From positions 1 to 21,677 of the IMG/VR virus record IMGVR_UViG_3300046000_010637: a stretch of 21,677 bases of DNA; one strand, given 5' to 3'. The notes beneath the pieces were generated by a model. The model was not told where the DNA came from, did not search any database, and worked only from the letters and a program-made list of their open reading frames with translations. This stretch comes from a virus. Made by a program: the position numbers and the translations under genes. This document shows, in pieces, positions 2,744-18,691 of this stretch (position 1 is the stretch's first letter; every line of letters begins with the position of its first letter).

Positions 2744-4588
2744 TTATAAGTTTACTACTCTACCTTTAATATCAGTGTTTGGGTATTTTAATTCAAAAAT
2801 ACTAGGATCGAGTGATGGAAAAATTGTACCGTTTTGATTTGCTCCATTCATATCATAAGCCCATTCTGAATATCCAGATGTTGTTCCTGCTTTATTTGTG
2901 ATAGTTACAGATTTAACTGTTTGTACCCCATCAATTGCATCTAACATAACATATAAATCTGGGACTATAATTGGTTGGTTGATTTGCCATCTATTTGTAC
3001 TAAAATAAACTTGTAAAGCTTGAATACATTTTTGTAATACCTCGTTATTATTAAAGTTTGGATAGGTAATTATTTGAAAATCTACAGCAAAATTAATTAT
3101 AAATGCATCTTTAATACTAATAGTATCTCCAATCATTCTATATTGGTTAATATAAGTTCTTATATTATTTTTTAAAGCAGTAGATGCCGTAACTAATTTA
3201 TTATTTATATCATATGTTAAAACATATAAATCTAATGTAGTTGTTGGTTCTAATGCAGATGGTTTTTGTGTAAAAGCTTTAGCTACAACACCATATTTTG
3301 AAGGTAAACTTAATGCTCTAACTAAGTAATCATCAGCAGTTACGTTTCTTAATTGTGTTGCAAAGTTAGAAATTGAATTTTGTCTAATTTCTTCAATTGA
3401 ATCTCCATCTTGTCCCCCATTTGCAGGTCTTGGATTATTAACTGCTATTGAATTAAATACAAAATTAGAAGTAACAGGATCTAAACCACCTTTTTGGAAT
3501 TTTATTGTTGAAGTATTAGTAATATTATTAATAGTATTAGCTAACACATTTGATCTAACACCACCTCCAGTATAATATCTTATAGTTAAAGTAGTATTAG
3601 TTGGTGAAACCCCATAAGTATTTGTGAAAATAAAGTTAGTTGGGCTGTAAGCAGTTGTTAACTTATTTTGTTCAAATGGTAAACCTAAACCTACATTAAA
3701 TGGATTTGGGGTTATATCTTCACTTGTTGTTAATGGGTTACCAGAACCAAATTGGATTTGTAGTTGGGTAGTTGATAAAAATCTAGTAGCAAATCTATTT
3801 TGTACTTGTTTTAATTGTAAAATATAAGGTGTATCTAATTCAGCATTATTATTTGGATCATTAACGTTAGTATTTTTAATACCATCGTATACCATTTCTT
3901 GAGCTAAATAATCAACTTCGTACCATTTATTTCCATCACTATCTGTTATATCAGCAATACCCGCTATATTAGAATCTTCAAGAACTATGGTAGCAAATTC
4001 TTGTGGTGCACCAAAACTATATTGTAATTGATTTATTGTACCTGAAAATGCTTGTCTTGTTTTCTTTAATAGGAAGAAGACAGGTTCATTATTTGAAACT
4101 TGAGCCACACTAATTTCAGTTGGATCAAGAGAATTTGATACTGTAAAATCAATTGGAGATTCAGTTGTAAAATTAATTGGTGCTCCTGCGGATGTAGCTA
4201 ATTGAGTATTTGAATCTATGTATAAAGCATAATCATAATCAGGAACATAGATACTAGCAGATAATTTAGCTGGAACTTGTTGATAAAAATCAACTGTAGT
4301 TGTAGCTAAACCTGTTACTCTAGGTTTGTACCCGTACATATATGCTAAATCGTATAAGTTATCATACTGTCTAGCGTATTGAAGAAATGTTTCTTGAACT
4401 TGATTATCAAGATAAAAAGATAAAACGTCACCAACATAAGCTGCTTGTTCCATAAACATCATACCAGGAGATGTTTCAGAGAAATCGGTGTAAGTTGTTG
4501 GGAAGTAAGTCTGTGAGTAGTTGATTAATTGACTTCTATACTCAGAGAAATCTTTATTTATATAGTTTATATTTCTTCTAATAGCCAT
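2744..4588 (-). CDS. Baseplate wedge protein, T4 gp6 / baseplate J-like
   Basis: The 614-aa protein has the look of the T4 gp6 wedge family, which forms the ring around the baseplate hub. The N-terminus (INYINKDFSEYRSQLINYSQ), the segment DFSETSPGMMFMEQAAYVGDVLSFYLDNQVQE at about 36-67 and the following YARQYDNLYDLAYMYGYKPR are hallmarks of this family. In the middle, NPRPANGGQDGDSIEEIRQN and the following DDYLVRALSLPSKYGVVAKA match the baseplate-J core. T4 gp6 has 660 residues, so the length fits. The start overlaps the gp25-like stop by one base, and gp25-gp6 adjacency is conserved in T4-type phages. Confidence 0.93.
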   Translation of the reverse strand: MAIRRNINYINKDFSEYRSQLINYSQTYFPTTYTDFSETSPGMMFMEQAAYVGDVLSFYLDNQVQETFLQYARQYDNLYDLAYMYGYKPRVTGLATTTVDFYQQVPAKLSASIYVPDYDYALYIDSNTQLATSAGAPINFTTESPIDFTVSNSLDPTEISVAQVSNNEPVFFLLKKTRQAFSGTINQLQYSFGAPQEFATIVLEDSNIAGIADITDSDGNKWYEVDYLAQEMVYDGIKNTNVNDPNNNAELDTPYILQLKQVQNRFATRFLSTTQLQIQFGSGNPLTTSEDITPNPFNVGLGLPFEQNKLTTAYSPTNFIFTNTYGVSPTNTTLTIRYYTGGGVRSNVLANTINNITNTSTIKFQKGGLDPVTSNFVFNSIAVNNPRPANGGQDGDSIEEIRQNSISNFATQLRNVTADDYLVRALSLPSKYGVVAKAFTQKPSALEPTTTLDLYVLTYDINNKLVTASTALKNNIRTYINQYRMIGDTISIKDAFIINFAVDFQIITYPNFNNNEVLQKCIQALQVYFSTNRWQINQPIIVPDLYVMLDAIDGVQTVKSVTITNKAGTTSGYSEWAYDMNGANQNGTIFPSLDPSIFELKYPNTDIKGRVVNL

Positions 4589-5004
4589 TAGTTAAAATTT
4601 AGGATTAATTCGTCTTCAATACCAGTATTATTAATGAAATAATATACTTCAACTGTAATAATATTGTTATCTATATCATATGTGCTTTGTAATACTTTTA
4701 ATTCTTTAAGGGTAACTTGAGGAAATTCTCTACTAATTTTAGCTTGAATATCTTCTTGAAGGAATTCTAAGGTATTACTAGCAATTTGCTCAAATATAAA
4801 TCTTCTTAATCCACCCCCAAATTCAGGATTTCCTGGTCTTTCTCCAGGATTAGTTAAGAAATAATTAATTAAATTATTCTTTACTGCTTGTGATGTTAAA
4901 TAATTAGGAGTAAATACCCCACCCGCTGAAAATGGAAGATCAACACCGATACCAACTCTGGCTCTAGTGTCATTGGGTGCTATTTGTACTGCTCCAAATG
5001 CCAT
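4588..5004 (-). CDS. Baseplate wedge protein, gp25 (GPW/gp25 family)
   Basis: The 138-aa protein carries the family signature at residues about 52-70: NPGERPGNPEFGGGLRRFIF, followed by a helix and an amphipathic C-terminal beta hairpin. The Glu-Pro-Arg-type core motif appears here as GERPGNPEFG. T4 gp25 is 132 aa. In contractile tails, gp25 links the inner baseplate to the sheath and helps trigger contraction. The one-base overlaps with both neighbours support a tight operon. Confidence 0.95.
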   Translation of the reverse strand: MAFGAVQIAPNDTRARVGIGVDLPFSAGGVFTPNYLTSQAVKNNLINYFLTNPGERPGNPEFGGGLRRFIFEQIASNTLEFLQEDIQAKISREFPQVTLKELKVLQSTYDIDNNIITVEVYYFINNTGIEDELILNFN

Positions 5005-5366
5005 TATATACCACCTTTCATTAAGCCCATAATCATATCCATCCCAACATCTCCTACAGGTAAACTACTATTTGGAGAAGCTGTATCTACAGATGTGATT
5101 TGTAGTGGTTGTGCAAATGATTTTGAGTTAAATTGAGCTGCAGTTTCACCTAAAATATTTCTGTAAGCATCTCTCATATCCTCTTTTGCTTGAGGATTTA
5201 ATGGAGTTGGAGTTTGGATTGGAGAATGAATAGGTTCATATCTCGCATGTTCTGTTACAACTTGTTTTGGAGACTTAATTGCTTCTAATAAGATGTCTTT
5301 AAGTTCTTCTTGAATAGCTTCGCGTACTGCGTCTTTTACTATTGATTTTAATTCACTTAATTTCAT
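5004..5366 (-). CDS. Unknown 120-aa protein, first gene of the distal baseplate unit
   Basis: The N-terminal 32 residues are a strongly amphipathic, probably coiled-coil helix (LSELKSIVKDAVREAIQEEL...). A Pro/Gln/Thr-rich linker follows at about 45-60, and the C-terminus is Gly/Met-rich (GDVGMDMIMGLMKGGI). The gene is preceded 16 nt upstream by the putative late-promoter motif at 5383-5392. It overlaps the gp25-like gene by one base. The position suggests a baseplate or assembly accessory protein. No family is recognised. Confidence 0.75.
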   Translation of the reverse strand: MKLSELKSIVKDAVREAIQEELKDILLEAIKSPKQVVTEHARYEPIHSPIQTPTPLNPQAKEDMRDAYRNILGETAAQFNSKSFAQPLQITSVDTASPNSSLPVGDVGMDMIMGLMKGGI

Positions 5367-5382
5367 ATTGGTATTGTGTTTG

Positions 5383-5392
5383 TTATAAATAT
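5383..5392 (-). promoter_or_regulatory. Putative late promoter ATATTTATAA (unit starting at the 120-aa gene)
   Basis: The coding strand reads ATATTTATAAC and ends 16 nt before the start of the 120-aa gene. It is identical to motifs at 8559-8568, 11134-11143 and 16562-16571. It falls just after the stop of the 499-aa gene and would start transcription of the gp25/gp6 group. Promoter function is inferred from recurrence and position. Confidence 0.6.
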
Positions 5393-5396
5393 TATA

Positions 5397-6896
5397 TTAA
5401 TTTGCTTTTAAATTATTATTTCGAATATAGAACGCTAATTCGTCAATTAAGATTTGTGGTTGAGCACTAAATGATGGTTCTCCTTTTAATACTATAACAC
5501 CTGATGAATCAGCAGCAGTTGCATATCTTCTATATAGATCTCCAACTTTACTTTTTTGATCTACTACTACATCCATTTTAAACCCATTTACAAATTGTAA
5601 TGTTGGAGCTTCTTCTTCTGAAGTAACGGTTAATGCTAATAATTCGGCATTAATTTCTTCCATTGGTATTTGACCATCAGAACAATTTTCAATAAGTAAG
5701 TCTATTTTTTTAAGATACCTTAAAATTATAATTAAACATATAATTAAAAATATTAAGGCAATTATTAAAGCTTTTCTAAGTTCTTTTTGGATATTTTCTA
5801 AATCTTTAAATAAATCTTCTATACCCTGCAATTTGGCAAGTAAACTATAAGGTACACCGGTACCAGGAGGAGTAGCAACTGGAAAAGGTAATGAAGAGAT
5901 TGCTATTTTTCCGGATTTAAATTGTATACTTAAATATAAAAATATGGCGGCTAATACGGTGTTTAATATAATAACACCGTATATTTGATTAAGTTGTCGA
6001 ACAATAGAATTACGACGAGCTATACACGCTCTTAACAAAGCATTATTAGGACATTTATATTGTTTAGCATCGGCTTGTGCTAATTTGGTTATACCAAATA
6101 ATATAAATAACCCAATAGCTAGTGGTAAAAGTTTATTTTGAACAATACTTGCAAATTTTAATACTCTATTTTTTAATGCAACTATAGTTTTTTCTACAAC
6201 ACTTAAAGCTATATTTGCTGCTTTTTCAGCAGCACCATTCATTTCTTTTTTAATTTTTTCTGCTTCTATTTGAGCAGCTTCCTTTATATTTATTAAACCT
6301 TTAATAGGTAAGTTTTGTGGTACCTCGTTAGCTCCAGTTAAAATTTGTTGAGTATCAGGAGCATAATTATCCATTTCAAATAATAGAAATGGTTTTACTA
6401 ATACTTTATTACCTAATGCTGGGATAACAGGAACACCAAATCTAAATGTAAATTCTCCTTTTGCATCTGATTTGAGAAATTTTTCTGGTGCTTTACTATC
6501 GTATTTAAATACTTGTTTTTTAGTAATTATAGTTTCCTTTTGTCCTTTATCATTAACTATATTTTCTTTTACATCTACAGTTTCAGGTATCATTGGAAAC
6601 AATGATATTTCAGGAGTGATTTTTACACCCTGAATTGGTAGGTTTGTTTGTTTATCGTAAACTCTTCCAGTTGTTGAAAAAGTTTGGATAACAGGAACAT
6701 ATTGTTTTAATGTATTAAGATATTCTTTAGCAGAAAAATTCTTAACTCTATTTCTAACATCTTCAACTGTAACTCCAGGAGGTAGAGCCCCACTAGCCTG
6801 TGCCTTTGCTGCTTCTGCTTTAGCTACTAAATCCTTACCTTTAGGGGATTGAAGAAAGACATTAGCTAAATCTAATAATGCTTTTTGATCTATCAT
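5397..6896 (-). CDS. Baseplate-operon protein with CarboxypepD_reg-like domain and three membrane segments, 499 aa
   Basis: Order of parts: helical N-terminus (1-60); a transthyretin-like regulatory domain from about residue 71 (TFSTTGRVYDKQTNLPIQGVKI, then SDAKGEFTFRF at 143-153); a charged helix at 205-250; then three strongly hydrophobic segments at about 256-273, 306-325 and 376-394. Between TM1 and TM2 is a Cys/Arg-rich loop (C282, C291). The hydrophilic C-terminal 100 residues follow TM3. The gene sits between the gp5-like spike and the gp25 group, on what looks like one late transcript. True membrane segments are unusual for a baseplate protein. Possibilities include a virion protein that inserts into the host membrane at ejection, a baseplate assembly factor acting at the membrane, or hydrophobic segments buried in an assembly. 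I do not recognise the full-length family. Confidence 0.8.
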   Translation of the reverse strand: MIDQKALLDLANVFLQSPKGKDLVAKAEAAKAQASGALPPGVTVEDVRNRVKNFSAKEYLNTLKQYVPVIQTFSTTGRVYDKQTNLPIQGVKITPEISLFPMIPETVDVKENIVNDKGQKETIITKKQVFKYDSKAPEKFLKSDAKGEFTFRFGVPVIPALGNKVLVKPFLLFEMDNYAPDTQQILTGANEVPQNLPIKGLINIKEAAQIEAEKIKKEMNGAAEKAANIALSVVEKTIVALKNRVLKFASIVQNKLLPLAIGLFILFGITKLAQADAKQYKCPNNALLRACIARRNSIVRQLNQIYGVIILNTVLAAIFLYLSIQFKSGKIAISSLPFPVATPPGTGVPYSLLAKLQGIEDLFKDLENIQKELRKALIIALIFLIICLIIILRYLKKIDLLIENCSDGQIPMEEINAELLALTVTSEEEAPTLQFVNGFKMDVVVDQKSKVGDLYRRYATAADSSGVIVLKGEPSFSAQPQILIDELAFYIRNNNLKAN

Positions 6897-6897
6897 A

Positions 6898-8196
6898 TTA
6901 AGCTAATTTTACTTTTCGTGACACTAAATTTGGAATTTGATTCTGAATGTTAGTTATAGAATCTTTCATTAAATAAGCAACAGCAGGAGTAGCGTTTAAT
7001 GATGGTTCTTTATTTAAAGCATCAGCTAACTGCATTAAACTATTTAATAATGATGAAAATTGATCCATAAATGCATCTCCTAATACTGCGGATTGAGCAG
7101 CATTAACTTGACCTATAGAAACATTACCTGAATTGGAAAGTATACTAACATTCCCATTTTGAGATTTTATACCAACATCTTCTATAGCTTCTAAAACTAT
7201 TGATTTTTTAGATGATAATAAAATACTATCTGAAGTAGTATTAAATAATAATCGACCTGAATTTAATATTACTTGGGGTTGATTAAATGATTTAGGAGAT
7301 ATTGGAGCTTTAGAAATTACAGCAGAAAAAGGTATTGTAGATGTTTCACCTTCAACTTTTTTAGCTACTGCTACATCTATTGGAATTTGTTGGTCTGATG
7401 TTAAATATGCAGATGATAAATCTGTATTTATATCTTCAGTTACAGGAACCCAACCATCAGTTTGTGATGCCGCAGGTTGACCATTTCTTAAAATAGTAAT
7501 TGGATTACCATTTGCTCCACTTTTAGACCAATTATTTGTTATTTCAGCTGTTACATTTGAAGTAGCTCCTAAACGAATACTATTTCCAAATCTACCTTCA
7601 AATATATTATCACCTGCAAAAGGTAAAATAGGATGAATATTTGGTTTTTCAATAAAAGTACCACCACTATTACCATTTAAATTAAGTGTTAGTGGTTGAG
7701 TTGATTGTTTTTGAACGTTTCCTGCTGTTATATCAAATACAGATTTTTGCATTGATGGAGCAGAAGTATTATAGGGTGCATAATTATCTGGAAATGCATT
7801 GTGATGTTGACTATTCCAAAGACCTATAGGATTTAAATAGTAATAATCACCATTACCACTAATCTGTGTTTTTTCCTGGTTAGGTAAAAAGAATAGTAAT
7901 ACAAATTCGTTAACTAGAGGATAATTTTTTAAAAAGGGTAATAAAGGTCTTGCAAATGATCCCTTAGTATTATTTTTCGTTTGGGCACTAGGTGCAGCTT
8001 CAGTTAATTGAAATTTAATAGTTCCAATACCTGACCATCCTCCTACAGATGTAAAATACTCAGAATTTGAATTTAAAACAACACCAATAACCCTAGCACT
8101 AATTACACTATTAGATAGTGAATCAAGAGCACTAAGGGCAGATGAGTTAGATGATGAAGAACCACCTGAAATTGCAGCAACACCAGTCTTAAGCAT
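6898..8196 (-). CDS. Baseplate hub / central spike protein, gp5-like
   Basis: The 432-aa protein begins with a Gly/Ser-rich leader, then an OB-fold-like region (about 31-110: ISARVIGVVLN...IGTIKFQL...RPLLPFLKNYPLVNEFVLLF). Next is EGRFGNSIRLGATS at about 200-213, a segment typical of gp5-type spikes of T4-like marine phages. Residues about 305-362 show short strand repeats (LNSGRLLFNT, SILLSSKKSIVLEA, VGIKSQNGNVSILSNSGNVSIG), the pattern of the VgrG/gp5 trimeric beta-helix needle. No lysozyme domain is apparent, unlike T4 gp5 itself. It overlaps the upstream 116-aa gene by TAATG. Confidence 0.82.
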   Translation of the reverse strand: MLKTGVAAISGGSSSSNSSALSALDSLSNSVISARVIGVVLNSNSEYFTSVGGWSGIGTIKFQLTEAAPSAQTKNNTKGSFARPLLPFLKNYPLVNEFVLLFFLPNQEKTQISGNGDYYYLNPIGLWNSQHHNAFPDNYAPYNTSAPSMQKSVFDITAGNVQKQSTQPLTLNLNGNSGGTFIEKPNIHPILPFAGDNIFEGRFGNSIRLGATSNVTAEITNNWSKSGANGNPITILRNGQPAASQTDGWVPVTEDINTDLSSAYLTSDQQIPIDVAVAKKVEGETSTIPFSAVISKAPISPKSFNQPQVILNSGRLLFNTTSDSILLSSKKSIVLEAIEDVGIKSQNGNVSILSNSGNVSIGQVNAAQSAVLGDAFMDQFSSLLNSLMQLADALNKEPSLNATPAVAYLMKDSITNIQNQIPNLVSRKVKLA

Positions 8197-8546
8197 TATT
8201 TATCTTTATTTTCTTTAAAATCATTATTTAATTTATCTAACTCAGCCATTAGTTGTTCTTTTTCAATTTCACTAATACCTGATGAATCATTGCTAGTACT
8301 TGTATTAAGCGCACGTTGTACTATAGTAGCCATTTTAATTAATTGTTCATCGTTACGAACACCAATTTCTAGATATTCTTTTATAAGTGGTACAATTAAA
8401 GTGGCGTCTCCAATATCAGCAATTAATGGTTTTAATTCCGATATTAGACCCGAGATTTGTTTTTCTTTTCGTTTTTGATTGTCGTAGATTTCTCCTAGAA
8501 TGTCGGAAAAGCTTTTTTTACCGAATATAATACTATCTAATCCCAT
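8196..8546 (-). CDS. Unknown 116-aa protein, first gene of the spike unit
   Basis: Mostly helical and charged, with no membrane segment. The C-terminal third is a likely coiled coil (EIEKEQLMAELDKLNNDFKENKDK). The ATATTTATAA motif ends 12 nt upstream, and the stop overlaps the start of the spike gene. The context suggests a small baseplate hub or assembly protein. No family is recognised. An ATG at 8551-8553 is in another frame; the start at 8546 is the in-frame one. Confidence 0.72.
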   Translation of the reverse strand: MGLDSIIFGKKSFSDILGEIYDNQKRKEKQISGLISELKPLIADIGDATLIVPLIKEYLEIGVRNDEQLIKMATIVQRALNTSTSNDSSGISEIEKEQLMAELDKLNNDFKENKDK

Positions 8547-8558
8547 AATACATTTTTG

Positions 8559-8568
8559 TTATAAATAT
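8559..8568 (-). promoter_or_regulatory. Putative late promoter ATATTTATAA (spike unit)
   Basis: The coding strand reads ATATTTATAACAAA, 12 nt before the 116-aa gene, in the 37-base gap after the sigma factor gene. It is the same motif as at 5383, 11134 and 16562. Function is inferred. Confidence 0.6.
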
Positions 8569-8583
8569 GGATATAGAAAAGAT

Positions 8584-9297
8584 TTAAAATTTACACCACC
8601 CGTTTTCTAAATAAAAGATATATTGTTTTTTAAATATATCATATAATTGATCCGCTATTTTGGTAATTTTGGGGGTTTTAACATCTATAATTTCTCTTAT
8701 ATAAATGTAAAGTGCTTTTTTATTAAAAATTTCTATAGTCTCCTTGTTTCTAAATAATTCTAAAATTGCATCCGCTATTTGAGCATCATTCTTTTTAGGA
8801 AACAATTCAAATATATTTTCGGTAACATAATCTACATATAAATCTATATATTTAGATAAATCATCTTTTACCTCATTTTCATTTTCATCCATACTATATG
8901 AATGAGTAGATCCTTCATTAGTTAAAACTTCAATATCTAATTTTTGGATTTTTTTACTGTAGTTTTTAGTGTTGTATAATATTAACCAACGTTTAACTAT
9001 GGTACCAAAGTATGAATATGCTTTAGCTCCCCTGGTTGGGTCAAATAAATGCATTTTTGATAGTAAGAATGTAATTATCTCATGTTGAAGATGTTCTAAA
9101 TTCTCTACTTCAGTATGGTAGAATTTAAAAGTATGAATAATATTTTGAGTAAGCTTAAAGAAGGGGTAATGTATCTCTTCTTCATATATCTTACTTCGTT
9201 TTACTGAACATTTTTCATTATTATATCTTACAATAGCTAATTCAGTGTCGTGGGTAAAGTAATTTTTGCTTTTAGGATTTCTGGTTTTTTTGATCAT
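8584..9297 (-). CDS. Late-transcription sigma factor, T4 gp55-like
   Basis: The 237-aa protein has a sigma-70 region 2-like core at about 45-110: a helix EEIHYPFFKLTQNIIHTFKF, then LEHLQHEIITFLLSKMHLFDP, then TRGAKAYSYFGTIVKRWLI. This is the pattern (FDP..G..AYSYFGTI.KR) seen in gp55-type late sigma factors of T4-like phages. No region 4 is visible, as in T4 gp55. It is longer than T4 gp55 (185 aa) because of N- and C-terminal extensions. The role would be to direct host RNA polymerase to phage late promoters. It is coupled to the 91-aa gene (one-base overlap) and lies directly before the late spike unit. Confidence 0.82.
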   Translation of the reverse strand: MIKKTRNPKSKNYFTHDTELAIVRYNNEKCSVKRSKIYEEEIHYPFFKLTQNIIHTFKFYHTEVENLEHLQHEIITFLLSKMHLFDPTRGAKAYSYFGTIVKRWLILYNTKNYSKKIQKLDIEVLTNEGSTHSYSMDENENEVKDDLSKYIDLYVDYVTENIFELFPKKNDAQIADAILELFRNKETIEIFNKKALYIYIREIIDVKTPKITKIADQLYDIFKKQYIFYLENGWCKF

Positions 9298-9572
9298 TAG
9301 TTAATTTTAAAACGTGATATACTTTTTTGTATAACCTTTATTTGTTCAAAAAACCAACCAATTTCATCATCACTATTAAACAAACCTTTATCATCAATTT
9401 GCTTAAGGCGTTTATCAGCGGCATCAATTTCGTCCCCAAATTCTTTAACGAAGTCACTATATTTAGATATAAGATCTTCTAGCTTTTCAGCTTTCCTTAA
9501 AAGGTTAAAGGTCGTGTATCCTAAGATAACGACCAATATTCCTAATATTATTGTAATAATTTCTAGTGTCAT
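9297..9572 (-). CDS. Small membrane-anchored protein, 91 aa
   Basis: Residues about 4-24 (EIITIILGILVVILGYTTFNL) form one membrane helix at the N-terminus, followed by a charged, probably coiled-coil cytoplasmic or periplasmic tail (LRKAEKLEDLISKYSDFVKE...). The start overlaps the HD gene stop by ATGA and the stop overlaps the sigma gene start. The function is unknown. Confidence 0.75.
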   Translation of the reverse strand: MTLEIITIILGILVVILGYTTFNLLRKAEKLEDLISKYSDFVKEFGDEIDAADKRLKQIDDKGLFNSDDEIGWFFEQIKVIQKSISRFKIN

Positions 9573-10348
9573 AAACTATCTAACATGCTTTTTAGTCCTG
9601 GGCTTGATACTGAGTTGAGTGCTTTGGATTTAGTACTTTTGTTTGTTGATAATGTATAATTACTTTTTTGCTGGGACACGGAATTTTTAACATCTCCTCT
9701 TAATTTAGGTAACCATTCCACTTCAAATTCAATTCTGGCAGCCATTAAATCAGCTTGGTGTAAGATAAATGGAAGTGATGTACGAGGTTTTTGTTCAACA
9801 CCCCACCCCATTAAATACTTTTTATTGGCATCATCATATAAACCATCATGTGTCTGAATGGCAACCATTTCATTAAATGAATATTGGATACCATGTGATT
9901 GAAGTAAAAATAAGCTACGGTCTGGAACAGATGCAAATGCTAATTTGGTATTAAACATATAGTCTTCACCTAATTTATCTTTTCTCCATTGATCAGTTTG
10001 AGGTATATAAGCATCATTTTCTTCATCTCCTAATTTACCTAGGTCATGATTAATAGCTGCAAATACTAATTCTTCCTGGGTGAATGTAGACATATCTGCT
10101 CCAAATCCTTCCCAAACAGCTGATAGTGCTAAGGCACCACGAACTACTCTATTAACATGATCTACATATCCTCCTGGGAATGCACTATGATATTCTTTTT
10201 TATGAGCCGCAGGCATTAAAATAACACGGTCTTCATATTTTTTATAGAATTCAAGTAATTTTTGTTTCCTATCTCCAGTAATGTAAGTTTCAATATTGGA
10301 GTTAAATTCGATCCAATTAGCTTGGAGTTTTTCTGCTGTTAGTTGCAT
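9569..10348 (-). CDS. HD-domain metal-dependent phosphohydrolase
   Basis: The 259-aa protein carries an HD superfamily active-site layout: YHSAFPGGYVDHVNRV at about 53-68 (first metal His), INHDLGKLGDE at about 99-109 (His101-Asp102 plus Lys105), His167-Asp168 in THDG, and a late HQAD at 197-200 supplying the last Asp. HD enzymes hydrolyse phosphate esters of nucleotides or nucleic acids; related genes in T4-like phages are usually annotated as nucleotide phosphohydrolases. The substrate cannot be told from sequence. The C-terminal 40 residues are Ser/Lys-rich and probably disordered. The start context is AAAATAGGTTATG, a motif shared with several other genes here. Confidence 0.88.
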   Translation of the reverse strand: MQLTAEKLQANWIEFNSNIETYITGDRKQKLLEFYKKYEDRVILMPAAHKKEYHSAFPGGYVDHVNRVVRGALALSAVWEGFGADMSTFTQEELVFAAINHDLGKLGDEENDAYIPQTDQWRKDKLGEDYMFNTKLAFASVPDRSLFLLQSHGIQYSFNEMVAIQTHDGLYDDANKKYLMGWGVEQKPRTSLPFILHQADLMAARIEFEVEWLPKLRGDVKNSVSQQKSNYTLSTNKSTKSKALNSVSSPGLKSMLDSL

Positions 10349-10369
10349 AACCTATTTTATTTAAATTTA

Positions 10370-10564
10370 TTATCTATTAATTTCGTTTGGTGTAGTTGGT
10401 TCGTTATCGATTGCGGATTTGATTTCCTCAATTTCTTCCATGCCTTCTTCAATTCTTAATTTAAATTGCGAAATAGGTTGAGCCGTATTTACCATGTATC
10501 TTAAGGTAGCAAATGTACCTTCTAATTTTTCTAATCTTTTCGTAATGTATTCTCGATTTTTCAT
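10370..10564 (-). CDS. Unknown small helical protein, 64 aa
   Basis: I place the start at 10564 (MKNREYITKRLEKLEG...), where the context TTTAATTATG matches neighbouring gene starts. An upstream in-frame ATG at 10597 would add 11 hydrophobic residues (MVYPVLNINLI) and is less likely. The protein is a charged helix throughout and ends in an Asn/Pro-rich tail. A host-like promoter lies at 10661-10691 upstream. The function is unknown. Confidence 0.65.
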   Translation of the reverse strand: MKNREYITKRLEKLEGTFATLRYMVNTAQPISQFKLRIEEGMEEIEEIKSAIDNEPTTPNEINR

Positions 10565-10660
10565 AATTAAATTTATGTTTAAAACAGGGTATACCATATA
10601 CCCCTTGTTGCCTCTATTTCCCTACCCTTTTCATTCCCATTTTTCCAAAACCCTGTAATT

Positions 10661-10691
10661 CAAAGTTACGGAAAATAAGTTAAATAGCCAA
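10661..10691 (-). promoter_or_regulatory. Bacteroidota-type promoter upstream of the HD/sigma operon
   Basis: The coding strand shows TTG (10691-10689), 20 bases, then TAACTTTG (10668-10661). This exactly fits the known Bacteroidota -7 consensus TAnnTTTG with a TTG near -33. It would start a transcript through the 64-aa gene, the HD protein, the 91-aa membrane protein and the gp55-like sigma factor. The TTG lies inside the end of the 146-aa gene. Confidence 0.6.
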
Positions 10692-11120
10692 GTTATTTTT
10701 AAAAGCTTCTTTAAGTTTTTTTATTTTTAATAGTTGGGCGCATCTTTCATATTCCTCTGTACTCTCAAAATATTGAAGAGCTTGATCTAGAGTAGTAATA
10801 AAGGGTTCCATTTTAAAATCAAGCAAGGCATTTAAATGGTATTTATTATTTAAATCAATTTGACTTATATAATGCCATGCTCTATTGTAAACGGTAAACA
10901 TTGAAGCATTCTTTGTAGTTTCCACATCATAACTAGGATGTTCTTTCTTCAAGAATTTATCTAATTTTTGGTGAAATATTGAATGATTTGCAATTAATTT
11001 AGTGAACATGCCAATTTTAGTAAAGGGGTCTTCTTTGAGAAGAGTTGCATTTTGTTCAATTTCTTCCTTTACTTTCGGGTGGTGATCAAATAAATCAAAT
11101 ATTTTATTTTTATTTACCAT
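10680..11120 (-). CDS. Unknown protein, 146 aa, with a late-type promoter
   Basis: Soluble, Lys-rich, largely helical protein (MVNKNKIFDLFDHHPKVKEE...). No motif or family is recognised. The ATATTTATAA motif ends 13 nt upstream, so it is predicted to be expressed late, perhaps as a virion or morphogenesis protein. It is not overlapped by its neighbours. Confidence 0.75.
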   Translation of the reverse strand: MVNKNKIFDLFDHHPKVKEEIEQNATLLKEDPFTKIGMFTKLIANHSIFHQKLDKFLKKEHPSYDVETTKNASMFTVYNRAWHYISQIDLNNKYHLNALLDFKMEPFITTLDQALQYFESTEEYERCAQLLKIKKLKEAFKNNLAI

Positions 11121-11133
11121 AGGGGGTAATTTA

Positions 11134-11143
11134 TTATAAATAT
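11134..11143 (-). promoter_or_regulatory. Putative late promoter ATATTTATAA (146-aa gene)
   Basis: The coding strand reads ATATTTATAATAAA, 13 nt before the start at 11120 and immediately after the stop of the 85-aa gene. Same motif as at 5383, 8559 and 16562. Confidence 0.58.
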
Positions 11144-11144
11144 A

Positions 11145-11402
11145 TTATAAATCCAAACCATCTAATTCTAAATCATCCAATTCGGTTTCTATCTCCTTTT
11201 TTATTGTAATCAAATTATCATATTCAGATACAATATCAATTTTCGCAGGATTTTCTGGGTGATATTTCCATAATTCTTCCATTACTGTAGATACTGAAAT
11301 TAAATCATTAATTAAATCAGCTTTTAAATTTTCTTTAATTGCTTCTTGATTTTCTTCATCAAAATCTCTTTGATTCATTCTAAATGTTTCTTTGTAAGAC
11401 AT
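11145..11402 (-). CDS. Unknown acidic protein, 85 aa
   Basis: Very acidic helical protein (MSYKETFRMNQRDFDEENQE..., ending ELDDLELDGLDL). No motif is recognised. It starts 4 bases after the methyltransferase stop with an AAAATTATG start context, so it is likely co-transcribed with that gene. Confidence 0.7.
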   Translation of the reverse strand: MSYKETFRMNQRDFDEENQEAIKENLKADLINDLISVSTVMEELWKYHPENPAKIDIVSEYDNLITIKKEIETELDDLELDGLDL

Positions 11403-11406
11403 AATT

Positions 11407-12156
11407 TTAGTTTTTAGTTATTATTTTTTTAAATTTTAATTGATAGGAATTAACATATGGTCTACCACCACTTTCTTCATCATAAATGTCTACAAATTCA
11501 GTTATTTCATGAAGATGATATTTAATACTTTTTATAAAAAACTCAGGGTTTATCATTTGTGATATATCTTTAACTTCAACAATCTCAAACCCATTTTTAC
11601 TAGCTACTTCTTTAACTCTATCCATAGTTTGAGGGTAATATTTAAAAAAGTTTTCAAATTGTTCTCTGTTTGCAACTTTCTTTTCATTATCACATATATC
11701 AAACCATTCCTTTATAAATAAAATTCCACCGTCTACTAATACTTTATTTGCATTTTTAAATGTATTCTCAATATCAGAATAAAATAAAGTTTCCAAGCAA
11801 AAACAATGAGTCATATTACGACCTGTATATGTTTCCATATTCTCTAATTTAAAAATATTAGTTGGAAAATTTAATTGAGATGCTTTTACACATTCCTCAC
11901 TATTTGAAATCCCCTCAGCATAGCAAATTTGATTTAATTTATTAACAAAAAATCCTGTACCACAACCAAAATCTACTACTTTAGATTGCTCATTAACTCC
12001 ACTTTCCTTAATTAAATAATCCGCAAATTCATCCCCACTTTGACCAATAAATCCAGCATGATAAAAGGGAACTTCATCTACGTGACCAAATAAATCTTTA
12101 GATTGGAGTTCATAATATTCTTTTTCAGTTTTCCAAGGATATTCTTTCTTCAACAT
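11407..12156 (-). CDS. SAM-dependent class I methyltransferase
   Basis: The 249-aa protein has motif I VVDFGCGTGFFVNKL at about 60-74 (SAM-binding Gly loop), a following acidic/Ser strand (AEGISNSEECVKASQ at 80-94), LENMETY at about 104-110, and a post-core DGGILFIKEWFD typical of Methyltransf_11/UbiE-like enzymes. The sequence does not show whether the target is a nucleic acid, protein, sugar or small molecule. DNA-methylase (D/N)PP(Y/F) motifs are not seen, so a base methylase is less likely. Neighbours are the T5orf172 protein and unknowns. Confidence 0.85.
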   Translation of the reverse strand: MLKKEYPWKTEKEYYELQSKDLFGHVDEVPFYHAGFIGQSGDEFADYLIKESGVNEQSKVVDFGCGTGFFVNKLNQICYAEGISNSEECVKASQLNFPTNIFKLENMETYTGRNMTHCFCLETLFYSDIENTFKNANKVLVDGGILFIKEWFDICDNEKKVANREQFENFFKYYPQTMDRVKEVASKNGFEIVEVKDISQMINPEFFIKSIKYHLHEITEFVDIYDEESGGRPYVNSYQLKFKKIITKN

Positions 12157-12165
12157 AATTTTAAT

Positions 12166-12175
12166 TTTTAAATAT
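12166..12175 (-). promoter_or_regulatory. Degenerate late-motif candidate ATATTTAAAA
   Basis: One mismatch to ATATTTATAA, ending 9 nt before the methyltransferase start and overlapping the T5orf172 gene end. This region is very AT-rich, so it may be chance. Confidence 0.2.
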
Positions 12176-12638
12176 AATTTTTACCTATTTTTTCTATTAC
12201 TTCTTTTGCTTCTTCTAATTCAATTTGAAAAAACTCTCTCTGTGAATTAACGCGATATTTTTCTAATGCATGATGTACTTCACCTTCCATTTGTTCACCG
12301 TTAAAACAACGGAAAGCCCATATAGCTTCGTATGGTAATGCCACACCCGTAGCAGCAGAAATTTGTTTTGCTCGTTCATCTGGGGTTAACTTGGTATAAC
12401 CTATTTTTAAAATCCCTGGTTGGGTTGGATTTGATAAAATATAAACCCATTGATCCCCTTCACCACGATTCGAAAATTTATTTCTCCTTCTAGCTGTAAA
12501 ATAAGTAACATCTTCCCAACCATCACCTTGTTTTGCAGGTGTAATTGTAAAATATTCTGCATTTTTTACACTTTGGTCTAAGAAATTTTCTTTTAAAGGA
12601 ATAAATTCTTGTGCTTCTTCTGTAGTTATCCTTCTCAT
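12168..12638 (-). CDS. T5orf172 (GIY-YIG superfamily) domain protein, 156 aa
   Basis: Residues about 64-138 match the T5orf172 pattern: WVYILSNPTQPGILKIGYTK (GIY-YIG equivalents in VYI and KIGYT), then TPDERAKQISAATG with the conserved Arg, an acidic residue in GEVHHALEKYRV, and a final REFFQ. The family is related to GIY-YIG endonucleases, but many members have no proven nuclease activity. The N-terminal 60 residues are specific to this protein. It overlaps the 182-aa gene by one base. It could be a phage nuclease acting on host or competitor DNA, or a mobile-type accessory gene. Confidence 0.85.
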   Translation of the reverse strand: MRRITTEEAQEFIPLKENFLDQSVKNAEYFTITPAKQGDGWEDVTYFTARRRNKFSNRGEGDQWVYILSNPTQPGILKIGYTKLTPDERAKQISAATGVALPYEAIWAFRCFNGEQMEGEVHHALEKYRVNSQREFFQIELEEAKEVIEKIGKNYI

Positions 12639-13186
12639 TATCTTATAGAATAATAAATAATATCAGGGTGATTTATCACATACATCCCATCAACATCCGT
12701 ATTATTAATATCAAAATTTGTAATAATATTATTGTCTATCATTTGTTGTAATTCTTGAGGGTGATAAACTTCATTACTAAAAACATATTCTTTATCTAAT
12801 TTCCCATTTTTATATTGATCACAAAAATGACCGTTTTCCCTAGGAGAAAAATTATAAGTAGCAACTACTTTATTTTCTAAATCATAACGATATTCATCAA
12901 ACTCATTTTTTCCTTCAATATCATATCTAACATAAAGTGATTCAAAATCATAATGATCAATGTGTGGTGATTTAAGATATTTTAAAATAGCTTCATCTTT
13001 ATCTTTAGCTGAAATGAATAAATAAATAGATTCAACTTCACCCTTACAAAATCTTATACCTCCAATTTGGGTAGTAAATTTTATATCCCAAAATATTATA
13101 TAATCCTCTGGCAATTGAGGTATTAAAATCTCAGTAATAAATTCACTAGTAAATTTTATACCATTATCTGTTAATACTCTTCCCAT
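12638..13186 (-). CDS. Unknown protein, 182 aa
   Basis: Soluble, Asp/Tyr/Ile-rich protein with no signal peptide or membrane segment. It contains a short stretch with MORN-like appearance (YRYDLENKVVATYNFSPREN...YKNGKLDKEYVF), but the repeats are too few to call. It is coupled by TAATG to both the lipoprotein and the T5orf172 gene. The function is unknown. Confidence 0.72.
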   Translation of the reverse strand: MGRVLTDNGIKFTSEFITEILIPQLPEDYIIFWDIKFTTQIGGIRFCKGEVESIYLFISAKDKDEAILKYLKSPHIDHYDFESLYVRYDIEGKNEFDEYRYDLENKVVATYNFSPRENGHFCDQYKNGKLDKEYVFSNEVYHPQELQQMIDNNIITNFDINNTDVDGMYVINHPDIIYYSIR

Positions 13187-13833
13187 TATTCAAATATTAT
13201 TTTAAATTCTTTTTCTACTGATCTACTTTCCCCTGTATCTGTATTAAAAATAGTTTTAACAAATACTTTAGCTGTATCTCCTATCATTTCATTGTCAAGA
13301 TACATTTGTTGTTTTGGTGTATAGTTATACTTACTTCTAGTTCCAATTAAGGTTGATGAGTAAGGACAATCCATACATTGGTGACGATTAATTTGGTAAC
13401 CTGCTATATTCATTGGTGGGTGAATATTCGCCATATTTGGTATAGTATACGTTAAATTTCCAATTGGAATCGGGGTATTGAAACCACCCCCAGTAAAATA
13501 ACCTAACACGCTATATAACGGTACTGTAAATTGAATATTATTAATCCAAACCCAATAGTTAGAATCAAAAATAGTTTCTACCAATGGTACTCCATTAACA
13601 ACATATTTAGGATCTAATTGGTCAATATTTCCTTTAATAGTAAAATATCTTAAACCATTATAAGGAACATGCCAGTATCCATTTGCATCTTGATATCTTC
13701 CAGGAGATACTGCAGGATCAATTTCAAAAAACGTATCACAAGAACCATCAATACAAGGATATGGGTTCGGTAACTCATCTGGGCTACACGCCCAGAAGAG
13801 ACTTACTATACTAAGGAATAATATCTTTTTCAT
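13186..13833 (-). CDS. Phage-encoded lipoprotein, 215 aa
   Basis: The N-terminus MKKILFLSIVSLFWAC is a lipoprotein signal peptide: two Lys, a hydrophobic core, and a lipobox-like FWAC with Cys16 as the acylated residue. SPDELPNPYPC follows; acidic residues soon after the Cys resemble Bacteroidota surface-export signals. The mature part is beta-rich and holds a Cys pair (CMDC at about 153-156). It lies between the DUF932-like and 182-aa genes with one-base overlaps, away from the structural genes. A role at the host envelope, such as superinfection exclusion, is inferred. No family is recognised. Confidence 0.8.
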   Translation of the reverse strand: MKKILFLSIVSLFWACSPDELPNPYPCIDGSCDTFFEIDPAVSPGRYQDANGYWHVPYNGLRYFTIKGNIDQLDPKYVVNGVPLVETIFDSNYWVWINNIQFTVPLYSVLGYFTGGGFNTPIPIGNLTYTIPNMANIHPPMNIAGYQINRHQCMDCPYSSTLIGTRSKYNYTPKQQMYLDNEMIGDTAKVFVKTIFNTDTGESRSVEKEFKIIFE

Positions 13834-14636
13834 TATGCTACTAATTCTAAGGCCTTGTTAAACATCGCTTTATTTAAATCTAAATCTTGCTTGAAGTTTT
13901 TAATTTTACGAGCTTGACGAACTCTACCTCTTATTGTAAGGTATGAAAAATTACCTTCCATAATATTCTCTTGAACGCGGTTAAATACTTCCCACAAACC
14001 ATTTCCATAATCTTGATTACGTTGTGGTTGTAAAACTTGCTCAATTGCAACTTCTCCAAAGGTATTATCTGTACCTTCAACTCTTAATTCAAGTAATGAT
14101 TTAGCTAAATCTAAAATTTGCTCTTCACCTAACTGAATCTCTTTCATTTTATTCATAGATTCAACTGTTAATGGTAAAGATTCAACGATTGAACGAATAG
14201 TTGATTGTAAAGCATCAAAATCATAACCCATATGACGAACTTTAAAATCTGCGAATTGCTCTGTAGCAACTACTAAACCATTTTCACAAATCATACGGAA
14301 TAAACCTGGAGTAAATGTAAATGAATTTTTACCATCATGAGAATTGGTAAGTAAAATTTGAGGGAAAACTTGGTCACCATCGGCACCATTAATTACTACA
14401 TCTGGATTTCTGAACACTACTAAGTGTTTTTGGAAACCAATATTTTTACGAGCTTTAACCTCTTTAGCATCAACAACACCCCAACCTAAAGTTTCCATAT
14501 CAGAAATTACTTTATCAGTTGAAATATGTGAATACTTTTCAGATACACCTGATGCACCTGTTTGAGTAAAAATACTTGGAGCTAATGATCTTAACTCATT
14601 TGAACTTTTGAATTCTGTGTTTTGTAAATTTAGCAT
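13833..14636 (-). CDS. DUF932 family protein
   Basis: The 267-aa protein resembles the phage/plasmid DUF932 family: ISTDKVISDMETLGWGVVDAKEVKARK...GFQKHLVVFRNPD in the first 90 residues, a central NSHDGKNSFTFTPGLFRMICENGLVV at about 98-125, and a C-terminal NRVQENIMEGNFSY. Members are widespread in phages and conjugative plasmids; the biochemical role is not established. It has its own promoter (14686-14716) and the start context AATAAAGGTTATG. It heads the run of overlapping genes down to the T5orf172 gene, with the methyltransferase close behind. Confidence 0.85.
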   Translation of the reverse strand: MLNLQNTEFKSSNELRSLAPSIFTQTGASGVSEKYSHISTDKVISDMETLGWGVVDAKEVKARKNIGFQKHLVVFRNPDVVINGADGDQVFPQILLTNSHDGKNSFTFTPGLFRMICENGLVVATEQFADFKVRHMGYDFDALQSTIRSIVESLPLTVESMNKMKEIQLGEEQILDLAKSLLELRVEGTDNTFGEVAIEQVLQPQRNQDYGNGLWEVFNRVQENIMEGNFSYLTIRGRVRQARKIKNFKQDLDLNKAMFNKALELVA

Positions 14637-14669
14637 AACCTTTATTTTTTAAATTTTAATTAAACGCTC

Positions 14670-14684
14670 GAACCTTTCGAACAC
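14670..14684 (-). promoter_or_regulatory. TTCGA direct repeats in the DUF932 leader (possible operator)
   Basis: The coding strand reads TTCGAAAGGTTCGA, two TTCGA units 9 bases apart, just after the -7 box. An almost identical stretch lies in the same place before the 91-aa gene (15038-15054). Conservation in both leaders suggests a transcription-start or operator element. Confidence 0.35.
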
Positions 14685-14685
14685 G

Positions 14686-14716
14686 TAAATATACGAACAA
14701 TTTCACCGGAAGCCAA
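14686..14716 (-). promoter_or_regulatory. Promoter of DUF932 operon (TTG-N20-TATATTTA)
   Basis: TTG (14716-14714), 20 bases ending TTCG, then TATATTTA (14693-14686). It shares the spacing and TTCG extension with four other sites in the window. The -33 TTG coincides with the loop of the terminator hairpin at 14704-14726. Confidence 0.65.
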
Positions 14717-14726
14717 GCCTCCTGTG
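14704..14726 (-). terminator. Hairpin after the 91-aa gene
   Basis: CACAGGAGGC-TTG-GCTTCCGGTG: a stem of up to 10 bp with one G-U pair and one mismatch, and a 3-base loop. No good U run follows (AAATTG), so termination may be weaker than at the copy at 15074-15096. Confidence 0.5.
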
Positions 14727-14734
14727 CATTACTT

Positions 14735-15010
14735 TTAGATTTTTTCTAATAAACTTGGTGTAACTGTAAAATTACCTGAACCATTAATTTCTTTAACTTT
14801 TATGTTAACACCATTAATTTTGGTAACATTAAATATTCTTGAAGCGGCAATCTTTCTATGGTTAATCTTAACAGTATCTCCTACTCTTAAAGCAGATTTT
14901 ACATCGTGAGAAACCTCAGATTTTCTAATTGAAACAGCATTAACAATAGCTTTTAATTCTGATTGATTTGAATTTTTAATAAATTCTAATACTTCGTTTA
15001 AATTTGTCAT
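14735..15010 (-). CDS. Small basic protein with SH3-like C-terminus, 91 aa
   Basis: The N-terminal half is a helix pair (LNEVLEFIKNSNQSELKAIVNAVSIRKSEV). The C-terminal half reads as a small beta-barrel of KOW/SH3 type (RVGDTVKINHRKIAASRIFNVTKINGVNIKV). Similar two-part small proteins occur in many phages without known function. It has its own terminator and promoter on both sides, and so is a free-standing transcription unit. Start context AATAAAGGTTATG. Confidence 0.75.
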   Translation of the reverse strand: MTNLNEVLEFIKNSNQSELKAIVNAVSIRKSEVSHDVKSALRVGDTVKINHRKIAASRIFNVTKINGVNIKVKEINGSGNFTVTPSLLEKI

Positions 15011-15055
15011 AACCTTTATTTTTTATTTATTTAACTTTCGAACCTTTCGAACACA

Positions 15056-15086
15056 TAAATGTACGAACAAAAACACCGGAAGCCAA
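15056..15086 (-). promoter_or_regulatory. Promoter of the 91-aa gene (TTG-N20-TACATTTA)
   Basis: TTG (15086-15084), 20 bases ending GTTCG, then TACATTTA (15063-15056). It is nearly identical to the DUF932 promoter. The -33 TTG again lies in the loop of the overlapping terminator hairpin. Confidence 0.65.
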
Positions 15087-15096
15087 GCCTCCGGTG
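15074..15096 (-). terminator. Rho-independent terminator of the tail-fibre unit
   Basis: CACCGGAGGC-TTG-GCTTCCGGTG forms a 10-bp stem (one G-U pair) with a 3-base loop, followed on the coding strand by TTTTTG. It lies just after the 331-aa tail-fibre gene stop. Confidence 0.75.
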
Positions 15097-15122
15097 CATT
15101 ATTTTTAATTTATTTTTTTAGA

Positions 15123-16118
15123 TTATCCTGCCTGAGTCAACGTAATAATAGTTGAAGGAATTGCAGGTATATTACCAGAAGCTGTATATGAAGAAGCTGT
15201 AATCTCAACCTCATCAGATTGCCATACTACTTCTAAAAAATCTGAGGTTTCTAAAGATACTAAGTAATTCCATGCTGCTAAATATTTACCTCCTGGGCCT
15301 CCTGATGCTTTTGTAATTTGTATATCACCAGCAGTATCGGGCATATTTGCTCCATTTTTCTTTAACCAAATGAAAACATTACTTGTACCATTATTTGATT
15401 TATTAAACTGAGTAGAAAACTGAACATTATAAGTTCCTGGATGTCCAACCGTTAATCTAGATTGGCTGACAACAGAAACACCATTTGCCACATCTAAATT
15501 TTCAAAAACCATAGAATGTGATGTATTTGGTATTGGGTTATATTGAGATTGAGTTGAATAAAAACTTCCATAATACCCATAACTTGAAGTTGTAACAAAG
15601 GATCCGGTATCATATGAAGTTAAAATATCACCACCATTTAAAGTTCCTGATCCTGTTATGTTTATTGAACCTGTAATTGTTTGGTTTCCTATAAAAATAT
15701 TTGAACCCGTAGTTGCTAAAGAGCTTGTATTAAACCCAAGAGCATAAGAAGCAGTTGTAGTATATGATGAAGTTAAAGCATAAGACGAACTTATTGATGT
15801 TGATGCACTCAAAGCATAAGATGCACTCAAAGCGTAAGATGAACTTACTGAATAAGACGAACTTAGAGCATATGAGCTACTTACAGAATAAGATGAAGAA
15901 TTAGCTATTAAAGCATAAGAAGAAGTTCCCGATAATGAACCTGTAAAACTAGTGGCGTTAACAGTATTAAAGGTAGCATCTAACCCAAGATTAAGAATCC
16001 CTTGACCTAAGTTAGTTACTGTAATTTGGTCTGTATCACCTCCTTGAACAATTGGTAGTACATTTGAACCCGTTGCTATTGAAGCTGATGGTAATTGTGT
16101 TATTTTTGTGTTTGCCAT
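15123..16118 (-). CDS. Tail-fibre/adhesin-like protein with YAL/S hexapeptide repeats
   Basis: The 331-aa protein starts MANTKITQLPSASIATGSNV, a virion-attachment type N-terminus common in phage fibre proteins of uncultured aquatic phages. Residues about 66-127 are about ten Ser/Ala/Tyr hexapeptides (SSYALS, SSYSVS, ASYALS). A beta-helix-like stretch follows (GNQTITGSINITGSGTL). The C-terminal 150 residues (from about 180: QSQYNPIPNTSHSMVFENLD) resemble a TNF/C1q-like jelly-roll receptor-binding head, as in many phage fibre tips. It follows the 139-aa gene by 12 bases and is closed by a terminator at 15074-15096. Role: host-surface binding. Confidence 0.8.
   Translation of the reverse strand: MANTKITQLPSASIATGSNVLPIVQGGDTDQITVTNLGQGILNLGLDATFNTVNATSFTGSLSGTSSYALIANSSSYSVSSSYALSSSYSVSSSYALSASYALSASTSISSSYALTSSYTTTASYALGFNTSSLATTGSNIFIGNQTITGSINITGSGTLNGGDILTSYDTGSFVTTSSYGYYGSFYSTQSQYNPIPNTSHSMVFENLDVANGVSVVSQSRLTVGHPGTYNVQFSTQFNKSNNGTSNVFIWLKKNGANMPDTAGDIQITKASGGPGGKYLAAWNYLVSLETSDFLEVVWQSDEVEITASSYTASGNIPAIPSTIITLTQAG
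15738..15923 (-). repeat. Tandem 18-bp coding repeats (hexapeptide array)
   Basis: About ten units of 18 bp encoding [SA]SY[AS][LV]S-type hexapeptides within the tail-fibre gene; synonymous and first-position changes separate the units. Such arrays can lengthen or shorten by slippage or recombination, altering fibre length. Confidence 0.75.
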
Positions 16119-16130
16119 TTTTTATTTTAT

Positions 16131-16550
16131 TTATCTGATTAAATTATTTCCATTTTCTGTCATTAAAAAATCTCCATTTTCGGCTATCAAAAATTGAATC
16201 CCAGATGAAGTAACACCTAAGCTAATACCACCTGTTCCTCTAAAAAAGCTTCCACTAAGTGCAATTGTTTCATCAGGTTCAAAATTAAAAGATCCTCCAC
16301 CAACACCAACACAAACAGAGGCAATATAAGATGAAGTAACTAATGATATAACATTATTAAAATTTGAAAAAAATCCTAAAGTATTAGTAGCAGAAGAAGA
16401 ATCATAGAAACCAATTCCATTACGAACAGTTTCTATGGTAAAATAAGCTACTTGGTCATTAGGAGAAATTATATCAAATGTGTAATTGCCCGAAATTTCT
16501 TCACATGGAGTTCCTGCTCCATAGAGTTGTTCAGCGGTGTATGATGCCAT
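16131..16550 (-). CDS. Tail-fibre-associated unknown protein, 139 aa
   Basis: Beta-rich, Gly/Ser/Asn-rich protein (MASYTAEQLYGAGTPCEEIS...) with no signal peptide. The C-terminus carries a short internal repeat (IAENGDFLMTENGNNLI). It is the first gene of the fibre unit, 11 nt after the ATATTTATAA motif, and is followed by the 331-aa fibre. A fibre subunit or tip protein is inferred. Confidence 0.7.
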   Translation of the reverse strand: MASYTAEQLYGAGTPCEEISGNYTFDIISPNDQVAYFTIETVRNGIGFYDSSSATNTLGFFSNFNNVISLVTSSYIASVCVGVGGGSFNFEPDETIALSGSFFRGTGGISLGVTSSGIQFLIAENGDFLMTENGNNLIR

Positions 16551-16561
16551 ATTCTATTTTA

Positions 16562-16571
16562 TTATAAATAT
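16562..16571 (-). promoter_or_regulatory. Putative late promoter ATATTTATAA (tail-fibre unit)
   Basis: The coding strand reads ATATTTATAATAAAA, 11 nt before the start at 16550, in the divergent gap between the fibre unit and the plus-strand operon. Same motif as at 5383, 8559 and 11134. Confidence 0.62.
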
Positions 16572-17989: not shown

Positions 17990-18157
17990 TTAACCTACCA
18001 ATGAGGCAGATATGGTATGGCGGGTTGATTTAATGGCTGGGTAATAGGTACCTCCACCCACGCGAATGTATTTTCTGGTATCAACCAATTTATTATCCAC
18101 CTCTTGACCCACGAATCTCAAATACGATTCACCGTTTAATTTCAATTTTGTTATCAT
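17990..18157 (-). CDS. Unknown small protein, 55 aa
   Basis: The open frame from ATG 18157 reads MITKLKLNGESYLRFVGQEV... and ends TISASLVG. The start has the AATTAAGGTTATG context seen in four other genes and a strong promoter (18200-18230) 43 bases upstream, which makes it likely real despite its size. Basic, strand-rich, no membrane segment. Unknown function. Confidence 0.6.
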   Translation of the reverse strand: MITKLKLNGESYLRFVGQEVDNKLVDTRKYIRVGGGTYYPAIKSTRHTISASLVG

Positions 18158-18199: not shown

Positions 18200-18230
18200 T
18201 AAATGTACGAACAATACCTCGGGTATCCAA
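18200..18230 (-). promoter_or_regulatory. Promoter of the 55-aa gene (TTG-N20-TACATTTA)
   Basis: TTG (18230-18228), 20 bases ending TTGTTCG, then TACATTTA (18207-18200). The spacer holds a small hairpin ATACC-CGA-GGTAT. Confidence 0.65.
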
Positions 18231-18660: not shown

Positions 18661-18691
18661 TAAATATACGAACGCTCCCTCGGGTAGCCAA
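18661..18691 (-). promoter_or_regulatory. Promoter of the 66-aa/60-aa gene pair (TTG-N20-TATATTTA)
   Basis: TTG (18691-18689), 20 bases ending GTTCG, then TATATTTA (18668-18661), about 23 bases before the start at 18638. Confidence 0.65.

Follow-up and report, generated by a model that had tools for sequence, protein, structure and literature searches.

The octamer TATTTATA is, in all likelihood, the late-promoter core of a large T4-like phage family of the Bacteroidota, comprising Immutovirus and uncultured marine relatives, in which it is probably read by a gp55-like sigma factor. The element was identified in the IMG/VR virus record IMGVR_UViG_3300046000_010637, the whole of which (21,677 bases) is referred to here as the window, and was followed in the relatives of the window (window clade), in the complete 160 kb genome of Flavobacterium phage vB_FspM_immuto (Immutovirus, hereafter immuto) and in the relatives of that phage (immuto clade).

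In the window the element is found as four exact copies of the ten-letter sequence ATATTTATAA (5383-5392, 8559-8568, 11134-11143 and 16562-16571), all on the minus (coding) strand and each shortly before the ATG of an open reading frame (ORF).

16558 to 16571, minus strand: predicted late-promoter element ATATTTATAATAAA, with 11 nt between the ten-letter sequence and the ATG of a fibre-type ORF starting at 16550
11130 to 11143, minus strand: predicted late-promoter element ATATTTATAATAAA, 13 nt ahead of the ATG at 11120 (ORF of 146 amino acids)
8555 to 8568, minus strand: predicted late-promoter element ATATTTATAACAAA, 12 nt ahead of the ATG at 8546
5379 to 5392, minus strand: predicted late-promoter element ATATTTATAACAAA, 16 nt ahead of the ATG at 5366

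Re-measurement of the coordinates and gaps agreed with the distances of 11, 12, 13 and 16 nt given in a preliminary description of this DNA and placed every copy in an intergenic region; the (C/T)AAA said there to follow three of the four copies follows all four (TAAA, TAAA, CAAA and CAAA). All 40 bases of the four copies are non-coding, and all four lie in the left 16.7 kb of the window, of which 589 bases (~3.5%) are non-coding. The number of copies is by itself marginal in this AT-rich window (4 against 1.16 expected, with four or more in 4 of 100 shuffles), so the significance of the element within the window comes from its confinement to this small non-coding fraction and not from copy number.

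Conservation was assessed by footprinting of the distinct upstream sequences of each window gene's orthologues, with exact TATTTATA scored within 35 nt. For the genes headed by the element, exact copies are present in 82 of the 107 distinct upstreams in the window clade and 87 of the 110 in the immuto clade, as against 0/318 and 0/457, respectively, at other gene starts. At the 5366 gene, exact copies are present in all 28 upstreams of the window clade and in 34/46 at the same position in the immuto clade, where all 46 match with at most one mismatch. The 8546 orthologues carry exact copies in 39/44 (window clade) and 53/64 (immuto clade) upstreams and, in the window clade, those of 16550 in six of the seven distinct upstreams and those of 11120 in 9/28 (17/28 with at most one mismatch). 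Exact TATTTATA was found before no other window-clade gene tested. The octamer remains constant in the orthologues while the flanks and the spacing vary, the distance from octamer to ATG ranging from 3 to 25 nt, and the pattern is repeated in two near-complete relatives of immuto and in six contigs of the window clade. A search with the 14-mer recovered 28 viral records, in each of which nearly all matches share one strand, and the reversed-pattern control gave none.

The coding strand of the complete immuto genome carries 30 copies of TATTTATA, of which 24 are intergenic (non-coding DNA is 5.3% of the genome), whereas dinucleotide shuffles of the gaps yield 2.6 on average and never more than 6. 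Two virion regions, which hold 27% of the non-coding DNA, contain 17 of the 24 (p = 1e-5), and the genes headed by the octamer include those for the terminase, gp20 (portal), tail sheath, tail completion, hub/baseplate and tape measure proteins. Several sites lie directly behind intrinsic terminators, as expected if RNA starts at TATTTATA, and the late elements and the early-class elements described below are oppositely distributed (Fisher p = 2e-5). These counts bear out the late-promoter reading of the preliminary description, which had called for a genome-wide search before virion genes: in the window clade as in complete immuto the motif precedes virion and tail genes, and it does not occur at comparable frequency within genes or ahead of early-class genes. 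The marginal count in the window alone would agree with an AT-rich word recurring by chance in AT-rich gaps; that explanation is excluded by the conservation in orthologues together with the complete-genome statistics, and its probability is negligible.

The same data bear on whether the motif acts in the mRNA, as an AU-rich 5'-leader enhancer substituting for the Shine-Dalgarno sequence in the Bacteroidota. Shine-Dalgarno sequences are missing in flavobacteria, where A is favoured at positions -14 to -11, -6 and -3 (PMC6847099), and the motif often ends 11-16 nt before the ATG. Such a translation-initiation signal is very unlikely, however, because the octamer is unchanged over the whole range of spacings, does not occur in exact form at the other gene starts of these genomes, of which there are hundreds, and is largely restricted to one gene class, often behind a terminator.

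The consensus of the element is A or C followed by TATTTATA and then an A-rich stretch, which is AAYAAA in the window clade. Information is limited to the octamer, the single preceding base and the following A-rich bases; a -35 element was sought at -45 to -15 in 50 and 40 sites, and no strongly informative position was found there. TATTTATA differs from the T4 late-promoter octamer, TATAAATA, only in the replacement of AA by TT at two central positions, with T, A and T at positions 1-3 and A, T and A at positions 6-8 retained. In T4 the octamer occupies -13 to -6 and the pockets of gp55 accept A-12, A-9 and A-8 (PMC7892883); in this numbering only -10 and -9 are changed in TATTTATA. The two octamers are also exact reverse complements, and since the octamer is nearly palindromic the reverse complement amounts to the two central substitutions. 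The polarity is fixed, with 24 copies of TATTTATA against 7 of TATAAATA in the coding direction in immuto intergenic DNA, the latter showing no clear enrichment (shuffled mean 3.5, maximum 11).

The preliminary description had proposed that the factor reads a different or flipped element. The first part holds, the difference being the central TT; the second is not supported, given the near-palindrome, the sufficiency of two substitutions and the fixed polarity. A true flip, in which the factor would read the T4 octamer on the opposite strand, agrees with the exact reverse complementarity and is extremely unlikely, as the sigma-2 tyrosine reading the non-template strand is kept (Y96, see below) and the polar flanks (A or C before, AAYAAA after) point toward the gene. 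A change in central-base specificity is simpler than an element read backwards, and the flip is not needed.

Like the T4 late promoter, the element is a single 8-bp, -10-like sequence without a -35 partner that heads virion genes and is paired with a sigma-2-type factor; the T4 system differs in its central AA and in its use of gp55 with gp33 and gp45. The late promoters of phages KVP40, 44RR, S-PM2 and Aeh1 likewise consist of one conserved octamer predicted in silico, and these retain the T4 centre, Aeh1 differing only at -13/-12 (PMC2988020), whereas it is the centre that is altered in the flavobacterial phages. Between immuto and the window the element, the gene order around the sigma gene and the presence of two promoter classes are shared, while the sigma proteins are 44% identical and the base preceding the octamer is A or C in immuto but almost always A in the window.

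The second promoter class was found in the window before four other ORFs.

14686 to 14695, minus strand: early-class element CGTATATTTA ahead of the DUF932 ORF (14636), itself preceded at ~19 nt by TTGG; the same class precedes the immuto DUF932 gene
15056 to 15065, minus strand: early-class element CGTACATTTA, ahead of the ORF that begins at 15010
18200 to 18209, minus strand: early-class element CGTACATTTA, ahead of the ORF that begins at 18157
18661 to 18670, minus strand: early-class element CGTATATTTA, ahead of the ORF that begins at 18638

These four have the form TTGG-N19-TAYATTTA with a leader ending in AAGGTT-ATG, and their immuto counterpart, GTTG-N19-TATATTTAGGTA, is present in ~17 copies, mostly before small early-type genes and the DUF932 gene. 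The class appears host-sigma-like in its resemblance to the host sigmaA box TAnnTTTG, which is placed at -12 to -5 in Flavobacterium psychrophilum (PMC9723704); the term 'early' reflects gene content and promoter type, from which we infer it.

This resemblance raises the question of whether the late element is itself a host promoter, read as a sigmaA -7 box or by an alternative host sigma, with the gp55-like gene a mere neighbour. TATTTATA differs from TAnnTTTG at two specified positions, the position of the host box would suit the close ATG spacings and a clearly host-like class is used for other genes of these phages. The late element shares with Bacteroidota sigmaA promoters (TTTG/TTG ... 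TAnnTTTG) the leading TA and the AT-rich -7 region; unlike them, and unlike the early class, it has no TTG/-33 partner, and it reads TATTTATA. It occurs chiefly ahead of late genes in phages that carry this sigma-2 family, and was looked for and not found before the genes of Microcystis phage Mel-JY01, which encodes a more distant gp55-like protein. Recognition by a host sigma alone is therefore unlikely. In Mel-JY01 (138785-179471) the gaps before genes carry classic Bacteroidota-type promoters (TTG...TAAGTTTG and TATATTTG), because of which a Bacteroidota bacterium present in the culture, and not Microcystis, may be the true host of that phage.

The candidate for reading the late element is encoded next to it.

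8584 to 9297, minus strand: putative gp55-like late sigma factor, 237 amino acids, with a sigma-2 domain at ~15-118 and a helical C-terminal extension at ~145-231

The preliminary description had noted a gp55-like gene in the window; it is this sigma-2 gene, which also adjoins the element in the relatives examined. The assignment as gp55-like is likely on the basis of profile comparisons: the orthologous gene is the sole match of the T4 gp55 profile (phrog_234) in a six-frame translation of the immuto genome (E = 0.008), it is likewise the sole match in one relative (E = 0.013) and Sigma70_r2 matches 17 of 67 family members weakly (best E = 0.006). The AlphaFold model has a pLDDT of 78.7 with confident sigma-2 helices, and Foldseek searches that included viral folds returned mostly sigma factors with weak E-values. 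An earlier AlphaFold model (shallow alignment, pLDDT 58.8) was set aside, and a match to gp55 at E = 1e-46 in a PDB profile search was discarded as circular, T4 gp55 itself being in the alignment. Confirmed relatives in viral contigs number 359 for the protein, and the immuto version has at least 600; the named phage matches are immuto, Mel-JY01 and one uncultured record. The Mel-JY01 sigma had no relatives among the viral contigs searched.

In T4, gp55 residue Y97 stacks on the flipped adenine A-12 (PMC7892883). In an FD-anchored ungapped alignment, Y97 corresponds to Y96 of the family, which is invariant (67/67), and the residues of the T4 -9/-8 pocket, N13, H95 and T99, align with D/E17, Y/F94 and G/Q98. 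These pocket differences may be what a change in central-base specificity would look like at the sequence level.

Compared with T4 gp55 the protein is ~50 residues longer, and its C-terminal extension (~90 residues, helical, partly confident in the model) is not present in T4 gp55. In the extension a KKALYIYIRE segment, almost invariant, precedes a TP...LT helix; the region is helix-turn-helix-like and has no sequence match to known domains. The T4 clamp-binding epitope (...LDFLYEAND) was sought at the C-terminus of the family and is absent, a different and longer helical segment being found instead. Comparison of the extension by hhalign gave no support for a sigma-4 or gp33 identity, and Foldseek aligned full-length sigmas, weakly, to the model.

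The conservation, position, strand and gene class of the element and the absence of a -35 partner suggest promoter activity. Most likely, host RNA polymerase carrying the gp55-like sigma-2 protein would read the element as a -10-like sequence on the non-template strand, and transcription would start ~4-6 nt downstream, late in infection. Late mRNA leaders would then be ~0-20 nt long and without a Shine-Dalgarno sequence, and early genes would be served by the separate host-sigma-like class. The octamer is 5 nt from the ATG in several window-clade 5366 orthologues, which with the T4 geometry would give a leaderless mRNA, and 3 nt from it in most immuto-clade orthologues of the gene at 81525, which would need a start 1-2 nt closer, near the geometry of the host box. 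From these spacings of 3-5 nt come the predicted leaders of 0-20 nt, with some late mRNAs nearly leaderless; in F. psychrophilum just 5.5% of mRNAs are leaderless (PMC9723704).

Several observations weigh against a late promoter read by a gp55-like factor. Some of the 3-nt spacings fit a T4-like start distance poorly, the sigma resembles T4 gp55 weakly in sequence (E about 0.01) and PDB searches with profiles lacking T4 gp55 (A1, A3 and A4) find no gp55. In immuto, the major capsid gene (126896) and some other late genes have no exact site; these may be reached by read-through or may use a degenerate element. Seven immuto sites are outside the virion regions, one of them heading a run toward the chitinase and holin genes.

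The replication genes of these phages also differ from those of T4. Immuto and its two near-complete relatives encode a polymerase of family A and none of family B, and the gp45 and gp44 profiles, which detect the T4 proteins, gave no convincing match in any of the three. T4 gp33, a small and fast-evolving protein, was the sole match of its profile (phrog_254). None of these three T4 proteins was detected in immuto. Since Mel-JY01, a phage with gp44 and PolB, is likewise missed by the gp45 profile, the absence of the clamp in immuto and its two relatives is only suggestive. A further, tentative and rather unlikely proposal is a one-piece late sigma, in which a gp55-type sigma-2 domain and a C-terminal flap- or DNA-binding domain would together drive transcription from TATTTATA without a T4-type clamp, giving largely leaderless virion mRNAs.

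The genes behind the elements at 8568 and 5392 are as follows.

8196 to 8546, minus strand: 116-amino-acid ORF headed by a predicted late element, orthologue of immuto 78906
5004 to 5366, minus strand: 120-amino-acid ORF headed by a predicted late element, upstream of the baseplate wedge genes and in the same position as immuto 81525
4588 to 5004, minus strand: gp25-like baseplate wedge subunit (phrog_261, E = 2e-17), in the unit headed by the 5392 site
2744 to 4588, minus strand: gp6-like baseplate wedge subunit (phrog_219, E = 1.5e-12)

The ORF starting at 8546 is the first gene after the gp55-like gene and heads a probable baseplate/tail unit, and that starting at 5366 heads the baseplate wedge unit (gp25-like and gp6-like). 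The gene order is shared between the window and immuto: hydrolase, small protein, sigma, 8546 orthologue, two large proteins, the gene at the 5366 position, gp25-like and gp6-like. The hydrolase-like gene (9569-10348, minus strand; phrog_5889), two genes upstream of the sigma gene, is conserved in both and is annotated as a phosphohydrolase in immuto. An ORF at 12168-12638 (minus strand) is related to homing-endonuclease-type and uncharacterised phage families (phrog_16524 and phrog_18411), and a T5orf172-domain gene is found near the sigma gene in immuto. In the immuto stretch 74474-74579, the late element at 74567 falls within the annotated gene immuto26A_145, just before an ATG at 74579, and the annotated start of this gene is probably placed too far upstream.

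In the literature searched, which lay largely outside subscription journals, no phage late promoter of sequence TATTTATA and no immuto promoters were found, and the Baltic Flavobacterium phage paper (PMC7077304) mentions neither immuto nor promoters. In many metagenomic contigs the motif serves as a marker of late transcription units, and it aids the correction of start codons. T4 late transcription is the model for clamp-mediated coupling of gene expression to DNA replication, and the element described here is a variant of that late system in a little-described phage family. Geiduschek and Kassavetis asked why nature shows no fused late sigma (PMC2988020); the gp55-like protein, with its added C-terminal region, is a concrete candidate for one. 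In these abundant, mostly uncultured marine flavobacterial phages the single-element design of the late promoter has been kept and two central bases have been changed.

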